Positions 29,934-41,882 of a stretch of 64,000 bases of DNA are shown here, in pieces. Made by a program: the position numbers and the translations under genes. The DNA comes from Micrococcaceae bacterium Sec5.7. Its GTDB lineage: Bacteria > Actinomycetota > Actinomycetes > Actinomycetales > Micrococcaceae. The stretch's first letter is position 1. Each line of letters begins with the position of its first letter. The notes under the pieces are model-generated. The model was not told the origin of the DNA, searched no databases, and was given only the letters and a program-made list of their open reading frames with translations. Where the stretch lies: assembly GCA_039636785.1 (NCBI GenBank), contig CP144169.1, positions 744,001 through 808,000 on the forward strand, read 5' to 3'.

Positions 29934-30024
29934 CGCGACTCGCCGGAGCATTAATCGCAGTTTCAGTTGAGCCCACCCCACCGTTGATTCCGTCAGAGTG
30001 TTTTTCCGATGGTGGAAGGCAGTG

Positions 30025-31698
30025 ATGGAGTTGAGGGTGGATGTTTTTGCTCAGATCCGGCGGGACGCACGAATGGATGGCTTGTCCATTCGGCGATTGG
30101 CGAAGAAGTATCGTGTTGCGCGGCGAACGGTTCGTCAGGCGCTGGCATCGGCGGAGCCGCCGAGCCGAAAGATCCCGGTCCGGGTCGCCCCTAAGTTGGA
30201 TCAGTTCAAGCCTGCCATTGACGAGATGCTGAAGCAGGATCTGGTTGCGCCGCGGAAGCAGCGGCATACCGCTCAGCGGATCTTTGACCGCCTCATCGAT
30301 GAACACCGGGCAGAGGTTTCGTATTCGACGGTGCGCCAGTATGTGAAGGCCCGCCGGGTCCGGATCGAGTATGAGGCCGGCAAAACATCTCTGGAGGTGT
30401 TCATTCCTCAGGAACACGCCCCGGGTGCTGAGGCTGAAGTCGATTTTGGTGAAGTGTGGGTTGATCTGGCCGGGGTCCGCACGAAGTGTTACATGTTCGC
30501 GTTCCGGCTCTCCTTCTCCGGAAAGGCTGTCCATCGGGTCTACCCGACGCAGGGCCAGGAAGCGTTTCTGGAGGGTCACCTTGACGCCTTCGCGACCATT
30601 GGCGGCATCCCCACCGGGCATATCCGCTACGACAATCTCACGGCCGCGGTGAAGACTGTCCTGGGAACCGGTCGCGGAAGGGTGGAGAACGACAGGTGGG
30701 TGCTTTTTCGTTCGCATTGCGGCTTTGACCCGTTTTATTGCCAGCCGGGTCTGGCTGGGGCTCATGAGAAGGGCGGGGTTGAAGGAGAGGTCGGCAGGTT
30801 CCGCCGCAACCACCTTTCCCCGGTGCCGGCGGTCGCGTCGCTGGCTGAGTTGAATGAGCAGATCATGGTCTGGGACGAGGCTGATGACCGGCGCCGGATC
30901 AGCGGGAAACTCCGGCCGGTAGCCGATGACTACGCTGCCGAGCGGCCACTGCTCAATCCCTTGCCTGCCGAGGCCTTTGACCCCGGGCTGGTGCTGACTC
31001 CCAGGGTTGACCGGTCATCGCTGATCCGGGTTCGGATGGTGAAGTACTCAGTGCCGGTCCGGTTCATTGGCCACAGGGTCCGGGTTTCCTTGAAAGCCTC
31101 CGAAGTCGTTGTCTTCGACGGCCGTGCCGTGATCGCCAAACACCCGCGGATGACGGGCCGTGAGGGCAGCCAGGTGAACCTCGATCATTACCTTGAAGTC
31201 CTCAAACGCAAGCCCGGCGCGTTGCCGGGGTCCACCGCACTGGCGCAGGCCCGGGCAGCCGGGGTGTTCACGCCCGCTCATGACGCGTTCTGGGCCGCGG
31301 CCAGGCGGACCGACGGTGATTCGGAGGCCACGCGTCAGCTGGTCGATGTCCTGCTGCTCCACCGGTCCATGGATGCTGCGGATGTGATCGCCGGCATCAC
31401 CGCGGCCCTGGAGGTCGGCGCCGTCACGGCTGACGTGGTCGCTGTTGAAGCCCGCCTGGCCGCCTCTGAACGGGGTGGTGCGGGGTGGGTCCGGCCCGAT
31501 TGCGGTTCCGGTGCAACAACGGATCTGCGTGAGCACAGGATTGTCAGTCTCACCCAGCGCCGTCTGGCGGATCCGGCAGCCGTCATAGCCGGCCTGCCGC
31601 CGGATAACCGGCCCCTGCCCTCGGTGGCCGGCTATGACGAGCTCCTTACCCGCAGAACCACGCCACCAGTCCCGACCGTGCAGGAGAACATCTCATGA
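30025..31698 (+). CDS. istA: IS21-family transposase IstA
   Basis: The 557-residue protein has an N-terminal helix-turn-helix (LSIRRLAKKYRVARRTVRQA, about 15-35) and an rve integrase core with DDE residues in AEVDFGEVWVDL, RYDNLTAAVK and EKGGVEGEVGRFRR, then a beta-rich C-terminal Mu-type region (MVKYSVPVRFIGHRVRV). It cuts and joins the element's ends. The ATG at 30025 follows GGAAGG. The stop overlaps istB by four bases, as usual in this family. It appears complete. Confidence 0.95.
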   Translation: MELRVDVFAQIRRDARMDGLSIRRLAKKYRVARRTVRQALASAEPPSRKIPVRVAPKLDQFKPAIDEMLKQDLVAPRKQRHTAQRIFDRLIDEHRAEVSYSTVRQYVKARRVRIEYEAGKTSLEVFIPQEHAPGAEAEVDFGEVWVDLAGVRTKCYMFAFRLSFSGKAVHRVYPTQGQEAFLEGHLDAFATIGGIPTGHIRYDNLTAAVKTVLGTGRGRVENDRWVLFRSHCGFDPFYCQPGLAGAHEKGGVEGEVGRFRRNHLSPVPAVASLAELNEQIMVWDEADDRRRISGKLRPVADDYAAERPLLNPLPAEAFDPGLVLTPRVDRSSLIRVRMVKYSVPVRFIGHRVRVSLKASEVVVFDGRAVIAKHPRMTGREGSQVNLDHYLEVLKRKPGALPGSTALAQARAAGVFTPAHDAFWAAARRTDGDSEATRQLVDVLLLHRSMDAADVIAGITAALEVGAVTADVVAVEARLAASERGGAGWVRPDCGSGATTDLREHRIVSLTQRRLADPAAVIAGLPPDNRPLPSVAGYDELLTRRTTPPVPTVQENIS

Positions 31699-32504
31699 GC
31701 CCGACCAACCCCGTTGTTGTCTCCACCACCCTGCGCCGCCGCCGCGGGCTGACGGAGGAGGCCGCGACCGCGGCCGTGGATCATGCCTGCCGGCGCCTCC
31801 GATTGCCGACGATCCGGGCGGTCCTTACCGAGGCACTGACGGTGGCGGGAAAGGAGCAACTCTCCTATCAGGGATTCCTGGCGGAGCTGTTGTTGGCCGA
31901 GTGTGATGACCGGGACCGGCGCAGCTCCGTCCGCCGGGTGAAGTCCGCGAACTTTCCGCGCGATAAATGGTTGGGCGACTTCGACTACGACGCGAACCAG
32001 AACATCAACCAGGCGACGGTCAATACCCTGGCCACCGGGGACTGGATCCGCAAAGGCCATCCACTGTGTCTGATCGGGGACTCCGGGACAGGCAAATCCC
32101 ACCTCCTCATCGGCCTGGGCACCGCGGCGGCGGAGAAAGGGTTCCGGGTCAAGTACATCCTCGCCACCCGGCTGGTGAACGAACTGGTCGAGGCAGAGGA
32201 TGAGAAAGTCCTGGCGAAAACCATCGCCCGGTACGGGCGGGTGGATTTGCTCTGCATCGACGAACTTGGCTACATGGAACTGGACAAGCGCGGCGCCGAA
32301 CTGCTGTTCCAGGTCCTGACAGAACGTGAAGAGAAAGCGTCTGTGGCGATCGCGACAAACGAATCCTTCTCCCGGTGGACGAAAACCTTCACCGACCCGC
32401 GGCTCTGCGCGGCGATCGTTGACCGCCTGACGTTCAAAGGAACCATCATCGAGACCGGCACCGACTCCTACCGCCTCGCGCAAACCAAAAACCAACAGCA
32501 CTAG
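31695..32504 (+). CDS. istB: IS21-family helper ATPase IstB
   Basis: The 269-residue AAA+ ATPase has Walker A LIGDSGTGKSHLL (near residue 115) and Walker B VDLLCIDELGYM. It helps IstA to capture target DNA. The N-terminal 100 residues are divergent, but the IstB core is complete and ends QTKNQQH. A closely related but not identical C-terminus (QTKKQQN) recurs at 42443-42478, evidence for a second, mostly lost copy of this element type. Confidence 0.95.
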   Translation: MSPTNPVVVSTTLRRRRGLTEEAATAAVDHACRRLRLPTIRAVLTEALTVAGKEQLSYQGFLAELLLAECDDRDRRSSVRRVKSANFPRDKWLGDFDYDANQNINQATVNTLATGDWIRKGHPLCLIGDSGTGKSHLLIGLGTAAAEKGFRVKYILATRLVNELVEAEDEKVLAKTIARYGRVDLLCIDELGYMELDKRGAELLFQVLTEREEKASVAIATNESFSRWTKTFTDPRLCAAIVDRLTFKGTIIETGTDSYRLAQTKNQQH

Positions 32505-32974: not shown

Positions 32975-33139
32975 TTACTTGTTCTTCTTCCTGGACATGA
33001 TCGCTGCAAAGACACCGGCGAGTCCGGAAGCGGTGATCACGATTCCTATGACCCGACCTGTGGTGTCGGTTGCTGCCATGACGGACATGACTCCGGCCAC
33101 GGCCAGAAGCGACATGGCGACAATATATAGACGGTTCAT
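32975..33139 (-). CDS. Small two-helix membrane protein (54 aa), Rhs-associated
   Basis: A short frame, ATG at 33139 with GGAGGGG five bases upstream, encodes 54 residues: helix one about 4-22 (LYIVAMSLLAVAGVMSVMA), a short loop with DTTGR, helix two about 30-47, and the basic tail SRKKNK. It is the fourth tiny gene downstream of the orphan Rhs copy on the same strand. I do not recognise a family. It is a candidate immunity protein or a leftover from an earlier Rhs cassette. Good ribosome site and membrane pattern support it; its size keeps confidence moderate. Confidence 0.6.
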   Translation of the reverse strand: MNRLYIVAMSLLAVAGVMSVMAATDTTGRVIGIVITASGLAGVFAAIMSRKKNK

Positions 33140-33157: not shown

Positions 33158-33277
33158 CTAACAATTGTGTATGATTCCTGCTCCGCCGCCAGCAGCTCCG
33201 GTAAGGGCTGAAAAGAGACCGAATGCTGCCCAGCCTCCGACCACACCCCACACGTTGGGAAAATCCCAGAATTTCAC
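33158..33277 (-). CDS. Putative 39-aa hydrophobic peptide
   Basis: A GTG at 33277 with GGAGG four bases upstream opens a 39-residue frame: MKFWDFPNVWGVVGGW, a Gly/Ala-rich hydrophobic stretch and the end AGIIHNC. It could form one membrane helix. It lies 18 bases before the next small gene. It may be a genuine peptide or the last codons of a lost toxin tail. No family is recognised. Confidence 0.4.
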   Translation of the reverse strand: MKFWDFPNVWGVVGGWAAFGLFSALTGAAGGGAGIIHNC

Positions 33278-33323: not shown

Positions 33324-33506
33324 CTAGTCTTGGGCGCTGGGGCTTCTGTACATGCGCCTTCCCCAGCCGAACGCCGCGTAGGCAGCCCCCAGGACTGACG
33401 CCGAACCCAGCCATTCTGAACGCCCGTCAAAGAGGCAAAGGATCGCCGACATGACCAGAAGGACCGTCGCCGCTATGTAAATCTTTTTGCGACCAGATTG
33501 TTCCAT
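33324..33506 (-). CDS. Small two-helix membrane protein (60 aa), Rhs-associated
   Basis: The ATG at 33506 has AAGGGG seven bases upstream and gives 60 residues beginning MEQSGRKKIYI, with helices at about 9-25 and 33-47 and a basic end. The frame is open to a TTG at 33608, which would add a third hydrophobic segment (94 residues) but has no ribosome site. It follows the 64-residue membrane gene on the same strand, in the small-gene run behind the orphan Rhs tail. The function is unknown; an immunity role is possible. Confidence 0.6.
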   Translation of the reverse strand: MEQSGRKKIYIAATVLLVMSAILCLFDGRSEWLGSASVLGAAYAAFGWGRRMYRSPSAQD

Positions 33507-33627
33507 TTTTCTGCCCCTTACAGACCGCCGTAGTAGGCGTTGGTTCAGGATTGTCCCGACAATAACCAGGAGCAGCAAGACCTCCGGCCAAGGACGTGGT
33601 TCTGTCAATCCGCGGCAGGATCAGTCC

Positions 33628-33822
33628 TCAACTAGGAGTGGTTGTGAGAGCACCGAACAATGCGTAGAGGAACAGTCCGACGGAGAGCAGTACGAGCAAC
33701 AGGACGACGGTTCGCCCGGGGAATGGCTTCCCTTTCGCTAAACGCTTCGATCGGACGTACAGGAAACAACCGCCTAGAACGAGTAGGGCCGCGAAGAGCG
33801 GTATCAATGGCCAGTAGCGCAC
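33628..33822 (-). CDS. Candidate immunity protein of the orphan Rhs tail (64 aa, two helices)
   Basis: The GTG at 33822 has AAGGAGG seven bases upstream, and that ribosome site is formed by the stop region of the Rhs frame, 12 bases away. The protein has helix one WPLIPLFAALLVLGGCFLYV, a basic loop KRLAKGKPFPGR and helix two TVVLLLVLLSVGLFLYALFG. Rhs immunity genes lie directly downstream of the toxin tail, and the toxin tail here is itself hydrophobic, so a membrane immunity protein would make sense. There is no sequence family match; the role rests on position and spacing. Confidence 0.72.
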   Translation of the reverse strand: MRYWPLIPLFAALLVLGGCFLYVRSKRLAKGKPFPGRTVVLLLVLLSVGLFLYALFGALTTTPS

Positions 33823-33834
33823 ATAATCACCTCC

Positions 33835-34733
33835 TTACTGACATGCCACGAACGCTGCACCAGCGGTCAGGGCGCCGAACGCTGCCGCCACTCCGGACAG
33901 AACTCCGAGGCTCAATCCTGCCGGGAGGCCGATCACCGAGGAGTCCACAAAGAGAGAGAACCCAAACAGACCTGCGGCGAATACTCCGATGCCCGCTGCA
34001 GCTGCGGTAAGTCCAGAACATGCGCTGAGTCCGGTGGGATCTGTGAAATTGCAGGGGCTGGCCCCTGCATAGAGATACCTGTTTCCCTCTTGCCCGGAGG
34101 GGTCGGGTTGGGTGAAGCGGCCGTTGCCGGGGGCGTAGTAGCGTGCACCGAACTTCGTGAGTCCGGTGGGGTCGTCTTTGTAGCCGCCGGCGTAGCGCCA
34201 TGGGTTGGCCGCGGCCTGTGTCCCGGTCTGGGTGGTGTTGCCCCAGGAGTCGTAGGTGTAGGTGGCTGCTTTGGCCTGGGTGCTGTCGGTGAGGGCGATG
34301 ACGGAGCCGAGCGCGTCGGTGGTGTAGTAGAAGCTGGCCCCGGCACTGTTGCGCATGCTGATGAGCGTACCCGCCGGGTCGCGGATGAACGAGGTGCTTG
34401 CGCCGGCGGTCGTCTGCTGGGTGATGCCGAGGGAGCCGTTGAGGTAGCTGGTGGCTCCGGCCGCGGTGCGCTCGGTGTTGGAGGGTCCGGCGTAGGCGAA
34501 GCTAGTCGTCGATCCCGCGGTGTGTGAGGCCAGCTGGTCGAAGGTGTTCCAGGTGCTGGTGGGTGTGCCGCCCCTGGTGGTGTTGCCGTTCGCGTCATAA
34601 GTGTAGGTCGAGGCACCGACCGGTGGCGCGGCGCAGGCCGCAGCGGCGGTACCCATCCAGCAGAGCTGGTCGGCGGCGTTGTAGGCCCAATGGAAAGTTG
34701 TGGCCCCTGTCTTGGCTGAGGTGAGACCGTTTG
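33835..34733 (-). pseudogene. Orphan Rhs core fragment with alternative C-terminal tail
   Basis: It has no start of its own. From about 34733 the frame reads as an Rhs/YD-repeat C-terminal core (YTYDANGN, YTYDSWGNTTQTGTQ, then GARYYAPGNGRFTQPDPSG) nearly identical to the main Rhs gene at 38.9-39.5 kb. After YLYAGASPCNFTDPTG it carries a different 64-residue tail, almost wholly hydrophobic (LTAAAAGIGVFAAGLFGF, later VLSGVAAAFGALTAGAAF), ending in FVACQ. This is the structure of displaced Rhs-CT orphon cassettes, able to recombine into the main gene. Upstream, homology stops at unrelated sequence. Confidence 0.85.
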
Positions 34734-34850
34734 CCGCGCTGGGCCCAGGGCATCGCCGAATCCGGGACGCCGTCGGTAATTACCAACCCCACAGCGTTTC
34801 TGGTGGACTTCCTGCCTGTCATTCGCCGCAAGCTGGGGCGCACCGGTCCA
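34731..34850 (+). pseudogene. Unrecognised coding remnant next to the Rhs orphan
   Basis: A plus-strand frame of about 40 codons reads LPRWAQGIAESGTPSV, then FLVDFLPVIRRKLGRTGPV, with the third-position GC of a real gene. It starts where Rhs homology ends and is cut by the second IS at 34858. I do not recognise the family. The RNase H-like frame beyond that IS is in another register, so the two may not be one gene. Confidence 0.35.
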
Positions 34851-34971: not shown

Positions 34972-35721
34972 CTAGGCGGTTGCGAGTGCTGTGTGCTCGC
35001 GCATGTTGTAATTGCCTGTCTCGACCCAGATCGTGTTGTGGATGATCCGGTCCATGATCGCGTCGGCGTGAACGCCGGAGCCGAGCCGCTGGTGCCAGTC
35101 CTTCTGCGAGTACTGGGTGCAGAACACTGTTGACGTCTCCCCGTAGCGGCGTTCCATCAGTTCCAGCAGCATGGTGCGCATCGATTCCGTGGGCCGATCC
35201 AGCAGCCACTCATCAATGACCAGCAGGGTGAATGCCGCATATTTGCGCAGGAACTTGCCGGATCCGCCAGGGGTGTCTTGGGCGGCGACCCAGGCTTCCT
35301 CGAGGTCGGGCATGCGGACGTAATGCGCGCGGATGCGGTGTTCGCATGCGCGTTTAGCGATCGCGCATCCCAGGTAGGACTTCCCCGACCCGGTGAACCC
35401 TTGGAAGACAACGTTCTGCTGCCGGGCCACGAACGAGCAGGTGCCGAGCTGGCTCAGCAGCGGCCGGTCAAGACCTCGCTCGTCGAGGAGGTCGATGCGG
35501 CGCAGGTCAGCGTTCGGGTAGCGCAGCCCCGCCCGCCGGATCAGGCCGGTGACTTTGGCATGGGTGAACGACGCGTAGGCGTCATCGACGACCAGCCGGA
35601 GACGATCTTCGAACGGCAGGCTGATGCTCAGCGTCTCGTCTTGGGTATCTATGGCCTCCAGCAGCTCGCCCGCGTTCATCTCCCGCAGCTTGCGTTTGGT
35701 TTCCGTGTCCAGGCGGCTCAT
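34972..35721 (-). CDS. istB: IS21-family helper ATPase IstB (element B)
   Basis: The 249-residue AAA+ ATPase has Walker A QGFTGSGKSYLGCA near residue 110 and Walker B TLLVIDEWLL near residue 165. Its start overlaps istA by four bases. It is the target-selection partner of the transposase. It appears full length, with no frameshift. Confidence 0.95.
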   Translation of the reverse strand: MSRLDTETKRKLREMNAGELLEAIDTQDETLSISLPFEDRLRLVVDDAYASFTHAKVTGLIRRAGLRYPNADLRRIDLLDERGLDRPLLSQLGTCSFVARQQNVVFQGFTGSGKSYLGCAIAKRACEHRIRAHYVRMPDLEEAWVAAQDTPGGSGKFLRKYAAFTLLVIDEWLLDRPTESMRTMLLELMERRYGETSTVFCTQYSQKDWHQRLGSGVHADAIMDRIIHNTIWVETGNYNMREHTALATA

Positions 35722-37271
35722 CGGGTCCCTCCTGCGTAGTAGGAGCTGCCGCGCACGTATCCGCCATCTTGGTCATCAGGCTCCTCGACGTGCCCGGTTT
35801 TGTCCTGCCCGGTGTCCAGGATCGGCCGCAGGTGGGCGTAACGGGGCGATCGTATCGGACCGCGCAGCGCGAGCTGGCATGCGGCTTCCACCCGGGCTGG
35901 TGAGAACCTACGAGACAGACGCAGCACCGCCAGGGCCGGGTCGTAGCCGGCTTCCTCGATGCGGACAGACTCGAAGATCTTCTCGATCACGGTCCCGGTC
36001 GCCGGTCCCATCCGTAACGCCCAGGCGTCGATCCGGGCCCGGTCCCAGGCTTGCCAGCTGTGCCCCTCGGGAAGGTCGGCTTCGTTCGTCCGATACTGGT
36101 TCGTCGTCGTCACGGGCAGCAGCAGGTGGCTGGTCAGGCGCTCATCACCCCGATAGATCTCGAGCACGGTGTCCGTGACGCGAAGATCAACATGCGCGCC
36201 GATGTGGGTGAACGGGACGGAGTAGAAGTTTTTTGACCAGACCACGTGTCCGTTCCGGCTTACTTTGCGCCCATATGTCCAGGTGCTGATCTCGAAAGTC
36301 ACCGCCGGCAACGGTTGCAGCAGCGGCTTCTCCTCGGCCGTGAACACGCTCAGCCGGGAGCCCTCCCGCTTCTGGAACGGCTGTCGGTTGTAGGCATCGA
36401 TCTGCTCCCGAATCCGGGCCCGCAGCTGCACCAGGCTGGTGAACTGCTCCTGCCTCAGACCCGCAATCACCCAGGTGGCGACGTGGGAGACAGTGTTTTC
36501 TACGCTGGCTTTGTCTTTCGGGTGCCGCACCCGGCCCGGTAGTACCGCCGCCGAATAATGCGCCGCCATCTCCCGATAGGCGTCGTTGAGGACGACTTCG
36601 CCCTCGCGCGGGTGAGAGATCACCCCGGTCTTGAGGTTGTCGGGGACGAGCCTCGGGACCGTGCCGCCGAAGAATGCGAACATCGCCGCATGCGCGCGCA
36701 GCCACGACTCCTGCCGCATATCCAACGTCGCCTCCACGAACGCATACCGGCTGAACGGCAGGCACGCGACGAACAAATACACCTTCGAGACCTCTCCCGT
36801 TGCCGGGTCAACGAGCTGCATCGTCGGCCCGGACCAGTCGACCTCGACGCCGCGGCCGGCCTTATGGCCGACCCGAGACGACGCGCCAGTGACGTTGGCG
36901 TAATCGCCGTAAAGCCTGCAGAACCGGTCATAACTCATCGCCGCTTGCCCGGCCCGACCGCACCCGTCGAGATACTCCTGGTGCAGCAGCTTCAACGTCA
37001 CCCCAACCCTGGCCAGCTCGCGGTGCACCTGGACCCAGTCCGGCTGCGCGAACACGCTCTCCCGCACCCCGCGACCGGGAAACAGCGCCAGATACACCTC
37101 GCCCTCAGACTTCTCCGCAACGTCGTCCCAACCGAGCCCGAGCTGATCCGCAGCATCGATCACCGCCTGAACGCTGTGCCTGGACATGCCCTGAGCAAGC
37201 GAGATCGCTCTGCCGGACAGGCCCTGGTTACGCAACTGCAAGACGAGCTTCGCCTTGATCTTCCGTACCAT
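35718..37271 (-). CDS. istA: IS21-family transposase IstA (element B)
   Basis: The protein has 517 residues from the ATG at 37271, which follows GGAAGGAG; an in-frame GTG seven codons earlier overlaps that site. It has a helix-turn-helix start (LSGRAISLAQGMSRHSVQAV), DDE core residues in GVEVDWSGPTMQL, VPDNLKTGV and KDKASVENTVSH, and a C-terminal region with WSKNFYSVPFTHIG. The length fits IstA. Intact genes, ends and target duplication suggest it could still be mobile. Confidence 0.95.
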   Translation of the reverse strand: MVRKIKAKLVLQLRNQGLSGRAISLAQGMSRHSVQAVIDAADQLGLGWDDVAEKSEGEVYLALFPGRGVRESVFAQPDWVQVHRELARVGVTLKLLHQEYLDGCGRAGQAAMSYDRFCRLYGDYANVTGASSRVGHKAGRGVEVDWSGPTMQLVDPATGEVSKVYLFVACLPFSRYAFVEATLDMRQESWLRAHAAMFAFFGGTVPRLVPDNLKTGVISHPREGEVVLNDAYREMAAHYSAAVLPGRVRHPKDKASVENTVSHVATWVIAGLRQEQFTSLVQLRARIREQIDAYNRQPFQKREGSRLSVFTAEEKPLLQPLPAVTFEISTWTYGRKVSRNGHVVWSKNFYSVPFTHIGAHVDLRVTDTVLEIYRGDERLTSHLLLPVTTTNQYRTNEADLPEGHSWQAWDRARIDAWALRMGPATGTVIEKIFESVRIEEAGYDPALAVLRLSRRFSPARVEAACQLALRGPIRSPRYAHLRPILDTGQDKTGHVEEPDDQDGGYVRGSSYYAGGTR

Positions 37272-37430
37272 TACCGGTACTCCTTCCACCACGTGGCCCT
37301 CACGCGGTGGAAGGAGCTTTTCAGGTGGCGCTCAACCACACCAACACTGGCGCTGACCAGCGCAAATCGTGGGCTCGGACCCCGGCGCTAACCCGCACCA
37401 CACATGGACCCCTCAAGAGCGAATATTCAG

Positions 37431-37712
37431 TCAGATTCCTGCGCGGCTCTGCGCCTGCTGCGTACCGTCGGAGCCTGCCGCCAGCCTGCCGCGTGCACGA
37501 CCAATCAGATCAAGCTCGCCCGAAGGATCCTCGAAGAATCCGGCCACATCCCGGTCCAGTTCCGCTGGGTGAAGGGCCACCAGGGCAACGAGATGAACGA
37601 AGCCGCGGACCGGCTCGCCGTCCTGGCCCGCCACAACCGGGAATTCGGCGTCACAAACGAGGTCGGCAAGAGGATGTTCCGGGACCTCCGCGACCAGCTC
37701 GTCGCCGCCTGA
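37431..37712 (+). pseudogene. C-terminal fragment of an RNase H-like protein
   Basis: A 93-codon frame runs from the IS boundary: SDSCAALRLLRTV, TTNQIKLARRILEESG, then the RNase H end VQFRWVKGHQGNEMNEAADR and a closing FRDLRDQLVAA. SDS and GHQGN fit the third and fourth active-site regions of RNase H1-type enzymes. The N-terminal half is absent: element B lies directly upstream, and the flank on its other side is not in register. It is a truncated remnant, origin unknown. Confidence 0.7.
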
Positions 37713-37880: not shown

Positions 37881-38078
37881 CTAGCGTCTACGCTTCCAGG
37901 ATCGAAACTTGGCGAGTTCGGCGCCAATCAGCACTAGAGCCAACACGAGAAACAAAAGCCCTAGCAACCAGTCCCCGTCGCCAAAGGAGAGGGCTGCCAT
38001 TATGACGAAGTACAGCGCTAGCCCGAGGGCCGCGACGGCAATCCACATTCGGTGACTTTCGTTTGGAATGACACTCAT
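37881..38078 (-). CDS. Small two-helix membrane protein (65 aa), Rhs-associated
   Basis: From the ATG at 38078 the 65-residue protein has helices at about 11-31 (MWIAVAALGLALYFVIMAAL) and 36-55 and a strongly basic tail (KFRSWKRRR). An in-frame TTG six codons earlier is possible. It is the third small membrane gene downstream of the main Rhs gene. No family is recognised. It could be an immunity protein for the present or an earlier toxin tail. Confidence 0.6.
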   Translation of the reverse strand: MSVIPNESHRMWIAVAALGLALYFVIMAALSFGDGDWLLGLLFLVLALVLIGAELAKFRSWKRRR

Positions 38079-38145: not shown

Positions 38146-38370
38146 TCATGAATGCGCAACCAACGCATATATCAGTGTTAATGCTCCGGCCAGCACAAAC
38201 ACGGCCCCCACCGCTCTGATGAATCTTGGCCTCATGCGAACGTACGGAGCCATCCGAGGACTCATCCTCTTGTCCCACTTTTGTTGAAGCGAAGCCAACC
38301 GACGCGGCTGCCAAACTGCAATCAGACCTATCAAGGCGACCGCCAGGCCGGTCCAAACTAGATTCCCCAT
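38146..38370 (-). CDS. Small two-helix membrane protein (74 aa), Rhs-associated
   Basis: The ATG at 38370 follows GAGAGGG. Helices lie at about 3-20 (NLVWTGLAVALIGLIAVW) and 51-71, separated by a long basic loop (KWDKRMSPRMAPYVRMRPR). It is second in the run of small genes behind the main Rhs tail, 38 bases after the 34-residue gene. Function is unknown. The arrangement mirrors the one behind the orphan Rhs tail. Confidence 0.65.
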   Translation of the reverse strand: MGNLVWTGLAVALIGLIAVWQPRRLASLQQKWDKRMSPRMAPYVRMRPRFIRAVGAVFVLAGALTLIYALVAHS

Positions 38371-38408: not shown

Positions 38409-38513
38409 TCATTTTCTTCCCTTGAAAAAGAAGAAGTAGGCCATGATGAGAATCAGAACGAAGAAGACCGCCGTCAGAACATTGACCCATGTTGTATCAC
38501 CTAACCACTGCAT
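38409..38513 (-). CDS. Small one-helix membrane peptide (34 aa) directly after the Rhs gene
   Basis: The ATG at 38513 with GAGG about nine bases upstream opens 34 codons: MQWLGDTTWVNVL, a hydrophobic segment with FFVLILIMAYFFFF, and a KGRK end. It starts 27 bases after the Rhs stop, the place where an immunity gene is expected. Its size resembles small membrane peptides that inhibit partners or sit in toxin-antitoxin systems. No family is recognised. Confidence 0.55.
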   Translation of the reverse strand: MQWLGDTTWVNVLTAVFFVLILIMAYFFFFKGRK

Positions 38514-38540
38514 GATTCTGTTCCTCGCCTCATGAGCCGG

Positions 38541-41500
38541 CTAGCCCAGTCTTGTGATGGCCGATATTCCATAGGTGCAGGGAGCACCAAGTGTGGCCGA
38601 GATCCCGAATGCTGAAGATGATGCCGATGTGCGGAAGAAAAGGGGGCCGATTGGACAGGTCAGAGCGAGGCTCGACGTACTTTCGGAAATATTGGTGTTT
38701 GAAACTGATGCCGATAAATTGGCACCAGCACCGCCGAATCCGAAGCCCGAAGTGAATCCGTAAACACCATTATCATCTTGGGACAGACCGAAATTTACGC
38801 AGAAAAACAAGCACACGCCAATTGTCTCATTCCCGGTCAGTCGTCCGCTCGGATCGGTATTGTTGACAGGGTTCGGGCCTGCGTAGAGGTACCGGTTTGC
38901 TTCCTGCCCGGAGGGGTCGGGTTGGGTGAAGCGGCCGTTGCCGGGGGCGTAGTAGCGTGCACCGAACTTCGTGAGTCCGGTGGGGTCGTCTTTGTAGCCG
39001 CCGGCGTACCGCCAGGGGTTGGCCGCGGCCTGTGTCCCGGTCTGGGTGGTGTTGCCCCAGGAGTCGTAGGTGTAGGTGGCTGCTTTGGTCTGGGTGCTGT
39101 CGGTGAGGGCGATGACGGAGCCGAGCGCGTCGGTGGTGTAGTAGAAGCTGGCCCCGGCACTGTTGCGCATGCTGATGAGCGTACCCGCCGGGTCGCGGAT
39201 GAACGAGGTGCTTGCGCCGGCGGTCGTCTGCTGGGTGATGCCGAGGGAGCCGTTGAGGTAGCTGGTGGCTCCGGCCGCGGTGCGCTCGGTGTTGGAGGGT
39301 CCGGCGTAGGCGAAGCTGGTCGTCGATCCCGCGGTGTGTGAGGCCAGCTGGTCGAAGGTGTTCCAGGTGCTGGTGGGTGTGCCGCCCTTGGTTTGGTTGC
39401 CATTCGCGTCATAGGTGTAGGTCGAGGCTCCGACCGGTGGTGAGGCGCAGGCGGCGGCTGCGGCTCCGTTCCAGCACAGCTGGTCGGCGGCGTTGTAGGC
39501 CGAATGGACGGTCGTCCCACCGGTCTTGGCTGAGGTGAGGCGGTTGCCGTTGAGGTCATAGGTCCAGGATTCGGTCACGGTGCCGGTGACGGCGGACTTC
39601 AGCCGCTGCACGGCATCGTAGCCATACGTGGTGACTGCGCCTGTGTCGGTGGTCATGGTCTTCCGCAACGCCCCGTCCCTGAGCGTGGTCGCATTGGTCG
39701 TGTAGGTGTAGGCGCGCTTGGCCAGGACGGCTGCCGCGGTGTTCGTCGCCGTGATGGAGGTGATCCTGCCGGCCTTGTCGTAGACCGTGGTGTTCTTCAC
39801 CCCGGTGGGGTACATGGTTGCGGTCCGGCGATTGTTGTCGTCGTTGGTGAAACCGGTGCAACCTGTGCTGTTCGGGAACACCGGGACGGCCGGGCAGGAC
39901 CCGCCCGGTTCTGCCAGGGCGGTCACCCGGTCCGCGTCGTCGTAGCGGTATCCGACCGTCCCGGTCGGATCGGTGAAGCTGGTGAGGTTGGACGCGTGGT
40001 CATACGCCAGGGATGTGGTGACTCCCCCGGTGGTCTTCGAGGCCGGGCGGTTCTGCTGGTCGTAGACGACACTGGTGGTCCCGGACCCGTCGACCCGGGT
40101 GGTGAGGTTGCCGTTGGCGTCGTAGGTGTAGGTCACGCAGCTCGCCGGGACGCAGCTCGCGCCGAAGCGCATCTGCAGCAAACGGTCGTTTCCGTCGTAG
40201 GCGTAGGTGGCGGTCTGGCCCTTGCCGTCCTTGCTGGTCGCGACCCGTCCGGCGGCGTCGAACGTTTTCGTGATGACCCCCAGCGGTGCCGGGCGGGTGA
40301 CCGTGACAGGATTCCGCGCGGCGTCGTAGGTGAGGGAGGTGGTGTTGCCCTTGCCGTCGATGGTCTTGCAGAGCTGGCCGCGGAGCGCCCCGCAGGTCGT
40401 GGCCGCCGCGTCGCCCTGGTATCTGGTGATGCGGGTGCCTCCGCCTGCCGCACCTCCCGGCGTGATGGTCTGGTACGGGCGCTTGGTGGCGGTGTCGTAG
40501 GTGTAGGCGGTGAGGTTTCCTTCGCTGTCCGTGGAGGAGACGGGCTGGAACTCCAGCCACGCCTCCCCGGCGGTGGCTGCCGGGTAGGTGTAGGCGATCT
40601 GCTTCGGTGTGCCTCCGGTCGCGCCGGCCGGGGAGGTGATGTTCGCCAGGGTGTTGTTCGGGTTGTACGCCGAGGTGCTCAGGTTGCCCAGATCATCGAG
40701 GTGGGTCAGCTGGTTGTCGTGCGCGTCGAAGGTCTTCGTGACCTTGTTCCCGAGCGGGTCGGTGACGGAGGTGATCTGGCGGGACGCGTTGAACTTGAAC
40801 GTCGTCACGCGGTTGTCGGTGTCCGTCAGGGTCGCGGTGGTGGCGTCCACGGAGGACAGGGTGTGGATGGTGGGGTCATTGCCGGCGGCGTCGTAGATGA
40901 TCTGGGCGGCCTTGCCGTTCACGTCGTAGCTCGTCTCGGTCCTGGCGCCCCGGCCGTCCGTCAGCCTGTGCAGCAGCCCGGAGGAGTAGTTGAAGCTGAC
41001 GTGCGCGCCGGCGGCGTCGGTCAGGTCCTGCAGGCGCCCGTCGCTGTCGTAATCGATGGTGATCATCCGGTTCAGGGTCTGGTCGGTGATTTTGGAGGGC
41101 TGGCCGGTGTTGTCCGCGTCGTTGTATTCGAAGAGGACCGTCCGGCCGTTGACGGTGGTGATGGTCTCCAGCCGGCCGTCGGTGTCGTAGGCGTAGGCGA
41201 TCCGGTCCGCGGTGTTGCTGTACTGGTCCCCGGCGAACGCGAGCCGGAACACCCCGTTGACCTTTTCGTAGAAGTTGGTGTTCCCCGAGCCGTTGAAGCG
41301 CAGCGTCACCGCCGTGGTGCTGAACGCGGTGATGGTCGCGTTCAGGCCGGCCGGCATGGTCCAGCCGCCCCCGGTCTTGGGCACGAACTTATACGTCCCG
41401 CCGTCGGCCGCCGTGTACGTGACGGAGTTGTCCGCGCCCACCGCCACCGCCGTCTCGGAAGTGCCCTCCGAGAGGGTGGGCCGGTCGTCGTTGATGCTGT

Positions 41501-41882
41501 TGTACCGAAGGGACAGGTCGATGTCCCGGTCCGTGCCTTCGAGATGAAGGAGCTTACCGGTGACCAGGATGTTGCCGGTGGTCGGGTTCCAGGCGAGGTT
41601 CATGCTGTCCGTCAGGCTGCGGTTGACCATTCCGGCCGGGGACAGGGAACCGGACAGGTGTCCGTTCGGTCCGGCCGCCGGCGGCAGGGTGTCATTGAGC
41701 GGGATGCTCTGCGCCACCGCCAGGTTCATCGGCGCCGAGACGGCCGGCGCAAGCGTCGTGGGCGCCACGCTCCGCGGCGGCACCACGGCGGGCGTTGAAG
41801 CGGTTCCTGCCGGGGCGCTCAGGCCCGTCAGAACAACCGCGGAAAGGACAAGACCTGACACAAGAGACCGTAAAGCAGCCAT
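38541..41882 (-). CDS. Secreted Rhs/YD-repeat protein with unrecognised C-terminal tail
   Basis: The protein has 1113 residues from the ATG at 41882 (GGGGG six bases upstream; an ATG at 41933 in frame is possible). A signal peptide (SLVSGLVLSAVVLTGLSAPA) is followed by a Pro/Ala linker, many YD repeats (YDADGRL, YDSDGRLQDLTD, YTYDANGNLTT and others, about 240-900), and the Rhs core ending GRFTQPDPSG and NPVNNTDPSG. The last 100 residues change character: Gly/Ser-rich, with four cysteines, more AT-rich DNA and no known toxin motif. Rhs shells enclose and release such tails. It is presumably exported and possibly wall-associated. Confidence 0.88.
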   Translation of the reverse strand: MAALRSLVSGLVLSAVVLTGLSAPAGTASTPAVVPPRSVAPTTLAPAVSAPMNLAVAQSIPLNDTLPPAAGPNGHLSGSLSPAGMVNRSLTDSMNLAWNPTTGNILVTGKLLHLEGTDRDIDLSLRYNSINDDRPTLSEGTSETAVAVGADNSVTYTAADGGTYKFVPKTGGGWTMPAGLNATITAFSTTAVTLRFNGSGNTNFYEKVNGVFRLAFAGDQYSNTADRIAYAYDTDGRLETITTVNGRTVLFEYNDADNTGQPSKITDQTLNRMITIDYDSDGRLQDLTDAAGAHVSFNYSSGLLHRLTDGRGARTETSYDVNGKAAQIIYDAAGNDPTIHTLSSVDATTATLTDTDNRVTTFKFNASRQITSVTDPLGNKVTKTFDAHDNQLTHLDDLGNLSTSAYNPNNTLANITSPAGATGGTPKQIAYTYPAATAGEAWLEFQPVSSTDSEGNLTAYTYDTATKRPYQTITPGGAAGGGTRITRYQGDAAATTCGALRGQLCKTIDGKGNTTSLTYDAARNPVTVTRPAPLGVITKTFDAAGRVATSKDGKGQTATYAYDGNDRLLQMRFGASCVPASCVTYTYDANGNLTTRVDGSGTTSVVYDQQNRPASKTTGGVTTSLAYDHASNLTSFTDPTGTVGYRYDDADRVTALAEPGGSCPAVPVFPNSTGCTGFTNDDNNRRTATMYPTGVKNTTVYDKAGRITSITATNTAAAVLAKRAYTYTTNATTLRDGALRKTMTTDTGAVTTYGYDAVQRLKSAVTGTVTESWTYDLNGNRLTSAKTGGTTVHSAYNAADQLCWNGAAAAACASPPVGASTYTYDANGNQTKGGTPTSTWNTFDQLASHTAGSTTSFAYAGPSNTERTAAGATSYLNGSLGITQQTTAGASTSFIRDPAGTLISMRNSAGASFYYTTDALGSVIALTDSTQTKAATYTYDSWGNTTQTGTQAAANPWRYAGGYKDDPTGLTKFGARYYAPGNGRFTQPDPSGQEANRYLYAGPNPVNNTDPSGRLTGNETIGVCLFFCVNFGLSQDDNGVYGFTSGFGFGGAGANLSASVSNTNISESTSSLALTCPIGPLFFRTSASSSAFGISATLGAPCTYGISAITRLG

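Follow-up and report, generated by a model that had tools for sequence, protein, structure and literature searches.

What the last 100 residues of an Rhs protein may do, and whether the small membrane genes behind them belong to the same system, is the question raised by the rhs locus in a 64,000-nucleotide stretch of the soil actinobacterium Micrococcaceae bacterium Sec5.7 (contig CP144169.1, positions 744,001 to 808,000), referred to below as the window. The answer favoured here, with a probability of roughly 0.7, is that this tail would be a Sec-exported, disulfide-bonded toxin module that disturbs the membrane of a rival from the outside and is blocked by a membrane immunity protein. The first-pass annotation had suggested a new toxin type aimed at membranes or envelopes, with immunity in the membrane. 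This is still the best-supported reading, although the tail proved not to be unique but one of a family of at least four, and the toxicity, disulfides and immunity of the pair formed by this tail and its partner are what we infer from their sequences.

The rhs gene is complete (38541..41882, minus strand) and encodes a protein of 1,113 amino acids, the N terminus of which reads, by its sequence, as a Sec signal peptide and is followed by YD/RHS repeats (Pfam RHS_repeat, E = 9.6e-47); Pfam matched neither a PAAR domain, as expected of PAAR-Rhs effectors of type VI secretion, nor an N-terminal LXG domain in this protein. The Rhs-associated core domain (residues 939-1013; 38844..39068, minus strand) ends at the second DPSG motif and matched NCBIfam Rhs_assc_core (TIGR03696) over model positions 1-75 of 76 with 75.6 bits (cut-off 32.5 bits). 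Since this match stops at residue 1013, within one position of the model end, residues 1014-1113 (38541..38843, minus strand) were taken as the variable tail, which is proposed to be a disulfide-bonded membrane toxin. The change to a Gly/Ser-rich, cysteine-containing segment in AT-richer DNA, already noticed past the last DPSG motif, was borne out by this boundary: the tail contains 15% G, 15% S and four cysteines (tail positions 11, 15, 63 and 89), and its DNA has a GC content of 51.5% compared to 67% in the remainder of the rhs gene. The absence of a known toxin motif was likewise upheld, as no match to the tail was found in Pfam, nothing above cut-off in NCBIfam, and none among PDB sequences, including a search with a profile of four sequences.

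Relatives of the tail were obtained by collecting the tails located behind homologous cores. Three full-length relatives were found in this way, in Arthrobacter pascens, on a plasmid of Arthrobacter sp. YA7-1 and on a plasmid of Streptomyces sp. 604F. The A. pascens and Streptomyces tails scored Z = 4.4 (1000 shuffles) and Z = 6.6, respectively, against the focal tail, and four cysteines are common to all four tails (positions 11, 15, 61-64 and 89-96, counted from the core). A profile built without the focal tail ranked it first among 4026 sequences with 14.3 bits, compared to 12.2 bits for the best of 4000 shuffled decoys and 4.8 bits for unrelated tails, while the other members of the family ranked first to third in the same leave-one-out comparison. 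With three full-length relatives sharing a conserved cysteine framework, the idea of an orphan sequence was dropped. In addition, a tail remnant comprising approximately the last 42 residues, 53% identical to the A. pascens tail, was found in genome G167, adjoined by an intact 79-residue two-helix gene. Searches with the tail as a single sequence yielded nothing convincing in the genus, the family, the GTDB genome contigs or plasmids; the strongest of the weak family-level matches were inspected and were unrelated, as were the order-level matches except for the G167 fragment. A phylum-level profile search gave low scores only, and viral contigs contained no relative of the A. pascens tail and none of the Rhs core.

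The genes behind the three full-length relatives encode proteins of 69-78 residues of the two-helix membrane type. It had been asked earlier whether homologous tails always precede small membrane genes, and a two-helix gene was indeed present at all four complete tails and at the G167 remnant. In the four other loci this gene lies directly behind the tail; at the focal locus a gene of 34 residues intervenes. Three small genes follow the focal tail on the same strand as rhs (minus), encoding a 34-amino-acid peptide with one hydrophobic segment (38409..38513, starting 27 nt past the stop of the tail), a 74-amino-acid protein with two (38146..38370) and a 65-amino-acid protein with two (37881..38078). 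The 74-amino-acid protein is, by position and topology, most likely the immunity protein of the focal tail, as it resembles the partner genes of the homologous tails in size, topology and a rough motif. The 34-amino-acid peptide could contribute to immunity, because one-helix genes come behind several Streptomyces tails. All three genes had been counted with the tail at first, and their existence and membrane character stand; a role of all three in serving this tail was dropped, as the 65-amino-acid gene matches (Z = 16) a gene directly behind an unrelated two-cysteine tail in genome G147 (locus L130) and would be an orphan immunity gene of that tail type. With a partner-gene profile that included the focal gene, tandem copies of partner-type genes with no tail beside them were detected in genomes G145 and G130, as expected of orphan immunity genes.

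A wider set of 52 distinct Rhs tails was compared, of which 34 came from Arthrobacter-type loci and 18 from plasmids of Arthrobacter, Paenarthrobacter, Streptomyces, Microbacterium and one Variovorax. Hydrophobic, Gly/Ala-rich sequences with GxxxG motifs prevail among these tails. Their cysteine counts were two (40 tails), four (eight), six (two), zero (one) and three (one), so that 50 of the 52 carry an even, non-zero number, and the single odd tail is apparently frameshifted. The plasmid tails were gathered once the pattern had been noticed, and their cysteine number was even in all, being zero in one; they do not include plasmids of a crop pathogen on which an Rhs core is likewise present. 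The partner membrane genes served as a control, with no cysteine in 26, one in 17 and two or four in 7 of them; the difference between tails and partners was supported by a Fisher p of about 2e-10, which, like the p-value below, is indicative only, as related tails are not independent. When tails were clustered at Z > 6, 21 of the 23 clusters were wholly even and non-zero in cysteine number. Cysteines occurred near both ends in 23 of the 34 tails from Arthrobacter-type loci, compared to 5.6 (standard deviation 2.0) expected with shuffled positions; the cysteines of the Rhs core itself are also found in close pairs.

A small membrane gene was present at no more than 190 nt from the tail in 50 of the 52 cases. 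Under a strict rule, a small transmembrane open reading frame (ORF) was located behind 23 of 37 Rhs tails compared to 5 of 156 control ends (Fisher p about 1e-15), the latter being the ends of long ORFs in the window and the loci, some of which are perhaps not real genes. Tails that resemble each other also tend to have partners that do so (Mantel r = 0.39, higher than in any of 2000 permutations). Co-inheritance of an adjacent putative immunity gene with the tail was found in this way for the set as a whole, while the focal pair is joined only by its position and topology. In the literature covered, which was incomplete, we found no account of such tails from Arthrobacter or Streptomyces, and this large set is apparently undescribed. 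Two observations on the set can be added. Tails starting with LDAADDCVQ (loci L132 and L140) have larger partner genes of 156-167 amino acids, with one helix and a long further part; these two partners closely resemble each other (Z = 63) and are also similar to the L126 partner, representing a second type of likely immunity protein. On the plasmid of Variovorax, a proteobacterium, an Rhs end (L209, 2501-3115) is 64% identical to the Arthrobacter core and has a two-helix partner, a possible case of inter-phylum transfer.

Of 206 genomes of the genus, 25 contained an Rhs core of the focal type, and the tails behind these cores differ from one another almost entirely. According to the first-pass annotation, a toxin would be contradicted if the tail matched a non-toxin structural domain that all related Rhs proteins share; instead, the tails of related Rhs proteins differ, and do so even inside the window. 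An orphan rhs core fragment of 673 bp (34064..34736, minus strand), which shares 94.4% identity with the end of the main core, is followed on the same strand by the second toxin cassette. This consists of a hydrophobic orphan tail of 64 amino acids (33835..34029) with cysteines at positions 4 and 63, unrelated to the main tail, and, 12 nt past its stop, a 64-amino-acid two-helix gene (33628..33822), its probable immunity gene. A third cassette, also on the minus strand, comprises a 39-amino-acid remnant of a toxin tail (33158..33277) and an intact 54-amino-acid two-helix putative immunity gene (32975..33139), both of which match one complete tail and gene pair in genome G165 (locus L125; Z = 12 and Z = 25.6, respectively). 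RHS repeats, a core domain, a variable tail and orphan cassettes, all features of Rhs polymorphic toxins, are found here, and an adjacent gene co-inherited with the tail is seen across the set.

Some further features of the region were recorded. Between the second and third cassettes lies another small membrane gene (33324-33608, minus strand; 94 amino acids, or about 60 from an internal ATG), possibly another orphan immunity gene, for which comparison gave no clear relative. Two IS21-like elements with istA- and istB-type ORFs (34972-37292 and 29998-32504) are located on either side of the orphan rhs cassettes, one of them separating the main rhs cluster from the orphan fragment. A short ORF at 37404-37712 (plus strand), the end of which is similar to the C-terminal part of ribonuclease H, is probably a gene remnant. 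Elsewhere in the same genome (L146, 3974-4606; C1, about 2147973-2148605), a third rhs fragment was found, N-terminal and cut off, with 95% identity across the initial 160 residues, which include the signal peptide, and a transposase-like ORF downstream.

In the proposed mechanism, the Rhs protein would be exported through Sec and the cysteines of its tail would pair as disulfides outside the cell; disulfides, and hence action outside the reducing cytoplasm, are suggested by the even cysteine numbers in an exported protein. The DPSG motifs would then be the sites at which the tail is freed from the Rhs shell, as has been reported for other Rhs proteins (PMC9637101), and the tail may insert into or disturb the cytoplasmic membrane of the rival from outside, mainly via amphipathic beta strands. 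The membrane is the suggested site of action because the partner proteins are little more than two helices, and a beta-structured toxin is proposed because the four-cysteine family shows beta periodicity and no membrane helix. This periodicity (z from 1.1 to 3.9, compared to a mean of -0.75 with a standard deviation of 0.98 for other tails) is confined to the four members of the family, the majority of the other tails being helical. The 74-amino-acid two-helix protein, possibly together with the 34-amino-acid one-helix peptide, would protect the membrane of the producer itself.

Several observations weigh against this mechanism. No segment of the tail exceeds the cut-off of the simple hydropathy rule by which membrane helices were called, and the beta periodicity of the focal tail itself is modest (z = 1.05). 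The 74-amino-acid gene does not lie directly behind the tail, and it resembles the other partners only weakly in sequence (Z = 3.6 with the A. pascens partner, rank 138 in the leave-one-out comparison). The lack of a membrane helix, together with the only moderate hydrophobicity of the tail and the conserved cysteine framework, would also suit a disulfide-bonded extracellular toxin that forms no pores and binds a target in the envelope, such as a membrane protein, lipid II or a cell-wall enzyme, which a membrane-anchored immunity protein then shields. We regard such a toxin as unlikely: the immunity proteins comprise hardly more than two helices and expose little outside the membrane, and strong hydrophobicity is seen in most other tails of the set.

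Explanations that assign no toxicity to the tail appear less probable still. The absence of an enzymatic motif in Pfam and NCBIfam would be compatible with a tail that has a structural or adhesive role, next to which the small membrane genes are unrelated neighbours; this reading is hard to reconcile with tails that are exchanged behind near-identical cores and co-vary with partner genes, and with partner genes that survive alone, and it is considered quite improbable. Even less credit is given to a degraded or frameshifted, functionless sequence in AT-richer DNA: the lower GC content (51.5%), the transposons nearby and the degraded relative in G167 could be read in this way, but four full-length members have kept the cysteine framework and a similar length in Arthrobacter and Streptomyces.

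The membrane toxin proposed here can be compared with several known systems. Tse5 of Pseudomonas aeruginosa is a pore-forming Rhs effector with a C-terminal toxin of approximately 150 residues that depolarises membranes (PMC9637101). Like the focal protein it is an Rhs protein, and its immunity protein Tsi5 has two predicted membrane helices, as the 74-amino-acid protein does; however, Tse5 depends on type VI secretion and has a helical tail, whereas the focal Rhs protein belongs to a Gram-positive bacterium and is predicted from its signal peptide to be Sec-exported, and its tail contains four cysteines, shows beta periodicity and lacks a predicted membrane helix. The ionophores of contact-dependent inhibition (CDI) are polymorphic membrane toxins with CdiI immunity proteins of 72-100 residues that form two-helix hairpins (PMC11630599). 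They share with the focal pair the combination of a (here putative) polymorphic toxin and a small two-helix immunity protein, but are carried by CdiA instead of Rhs and consist of five-helix bundles with separate entry domains, one of which contains the disulfide described for these toxins (PMC11630599). The membrane-spanning helices typical of Tse5-type and CDI toxins were absent from the focal tail by hydropathy, and its periodicity is beta instead of alpha; the two hydrophobic segments of the 74-amino-acid protein do fit the small two-helix immunity proteins of both systems.

Among Gram-positives, TspA (with TsaI), EsxX and TelE are type VII LXG or related membrane-depolarising toxins (PMC12744356, PMC10434224); of these, TspA acts exclusively from the outside and is countered by one immunity protein in the membrane (PMC12744356). 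Their glycine zippers are also seen in many other tails of the 52-tail set, but the focal protein has neither an LXG domain nor type VII substrate features, and its tail would be delivered as part of an Rhs protein that begins with a predicted signal peptide. Finally, Tox-WTIP is a predicted pore-forming tail on Rhs proteins, listed for proteobacteria (Zhang et al. 2012, PMC3482391). Its defining motifs, RxxR and Wx[ST]IP, are not seen in the focal tail, and the text consulted mentions neither disulfides nor Arthrobacter (PMC3482391).

A broader proposal is offered tentatively, at somewhat less than even odds: that there is a clade of actinobacterial, Sec-exported Rhs proteins whose tails are nearly all short, disulfide-bonded membrane toxins acting from outside, with no import into the target, and that the four-cysteine Gly/Ser family, the focal tail included, has a new, beta-structured fold of membrane toxin. 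Among known Rhs tails, many are enzymes that need to reach the cytoplasm. If the proposal is true, oxidised toxins at the surface of the target membrane would be a strategy different from that of cytoplasm-entering enzymes, and dozens of compact toxin-immunity pairs would become available for testing. Even cysteine numbers combined with a two-helix neighbour would provide a simple signature for finding further such tails, and the focal family, for which neither Pfam nor the PDB sequences offer a relative, would be a candidate family of beta-type toxins.
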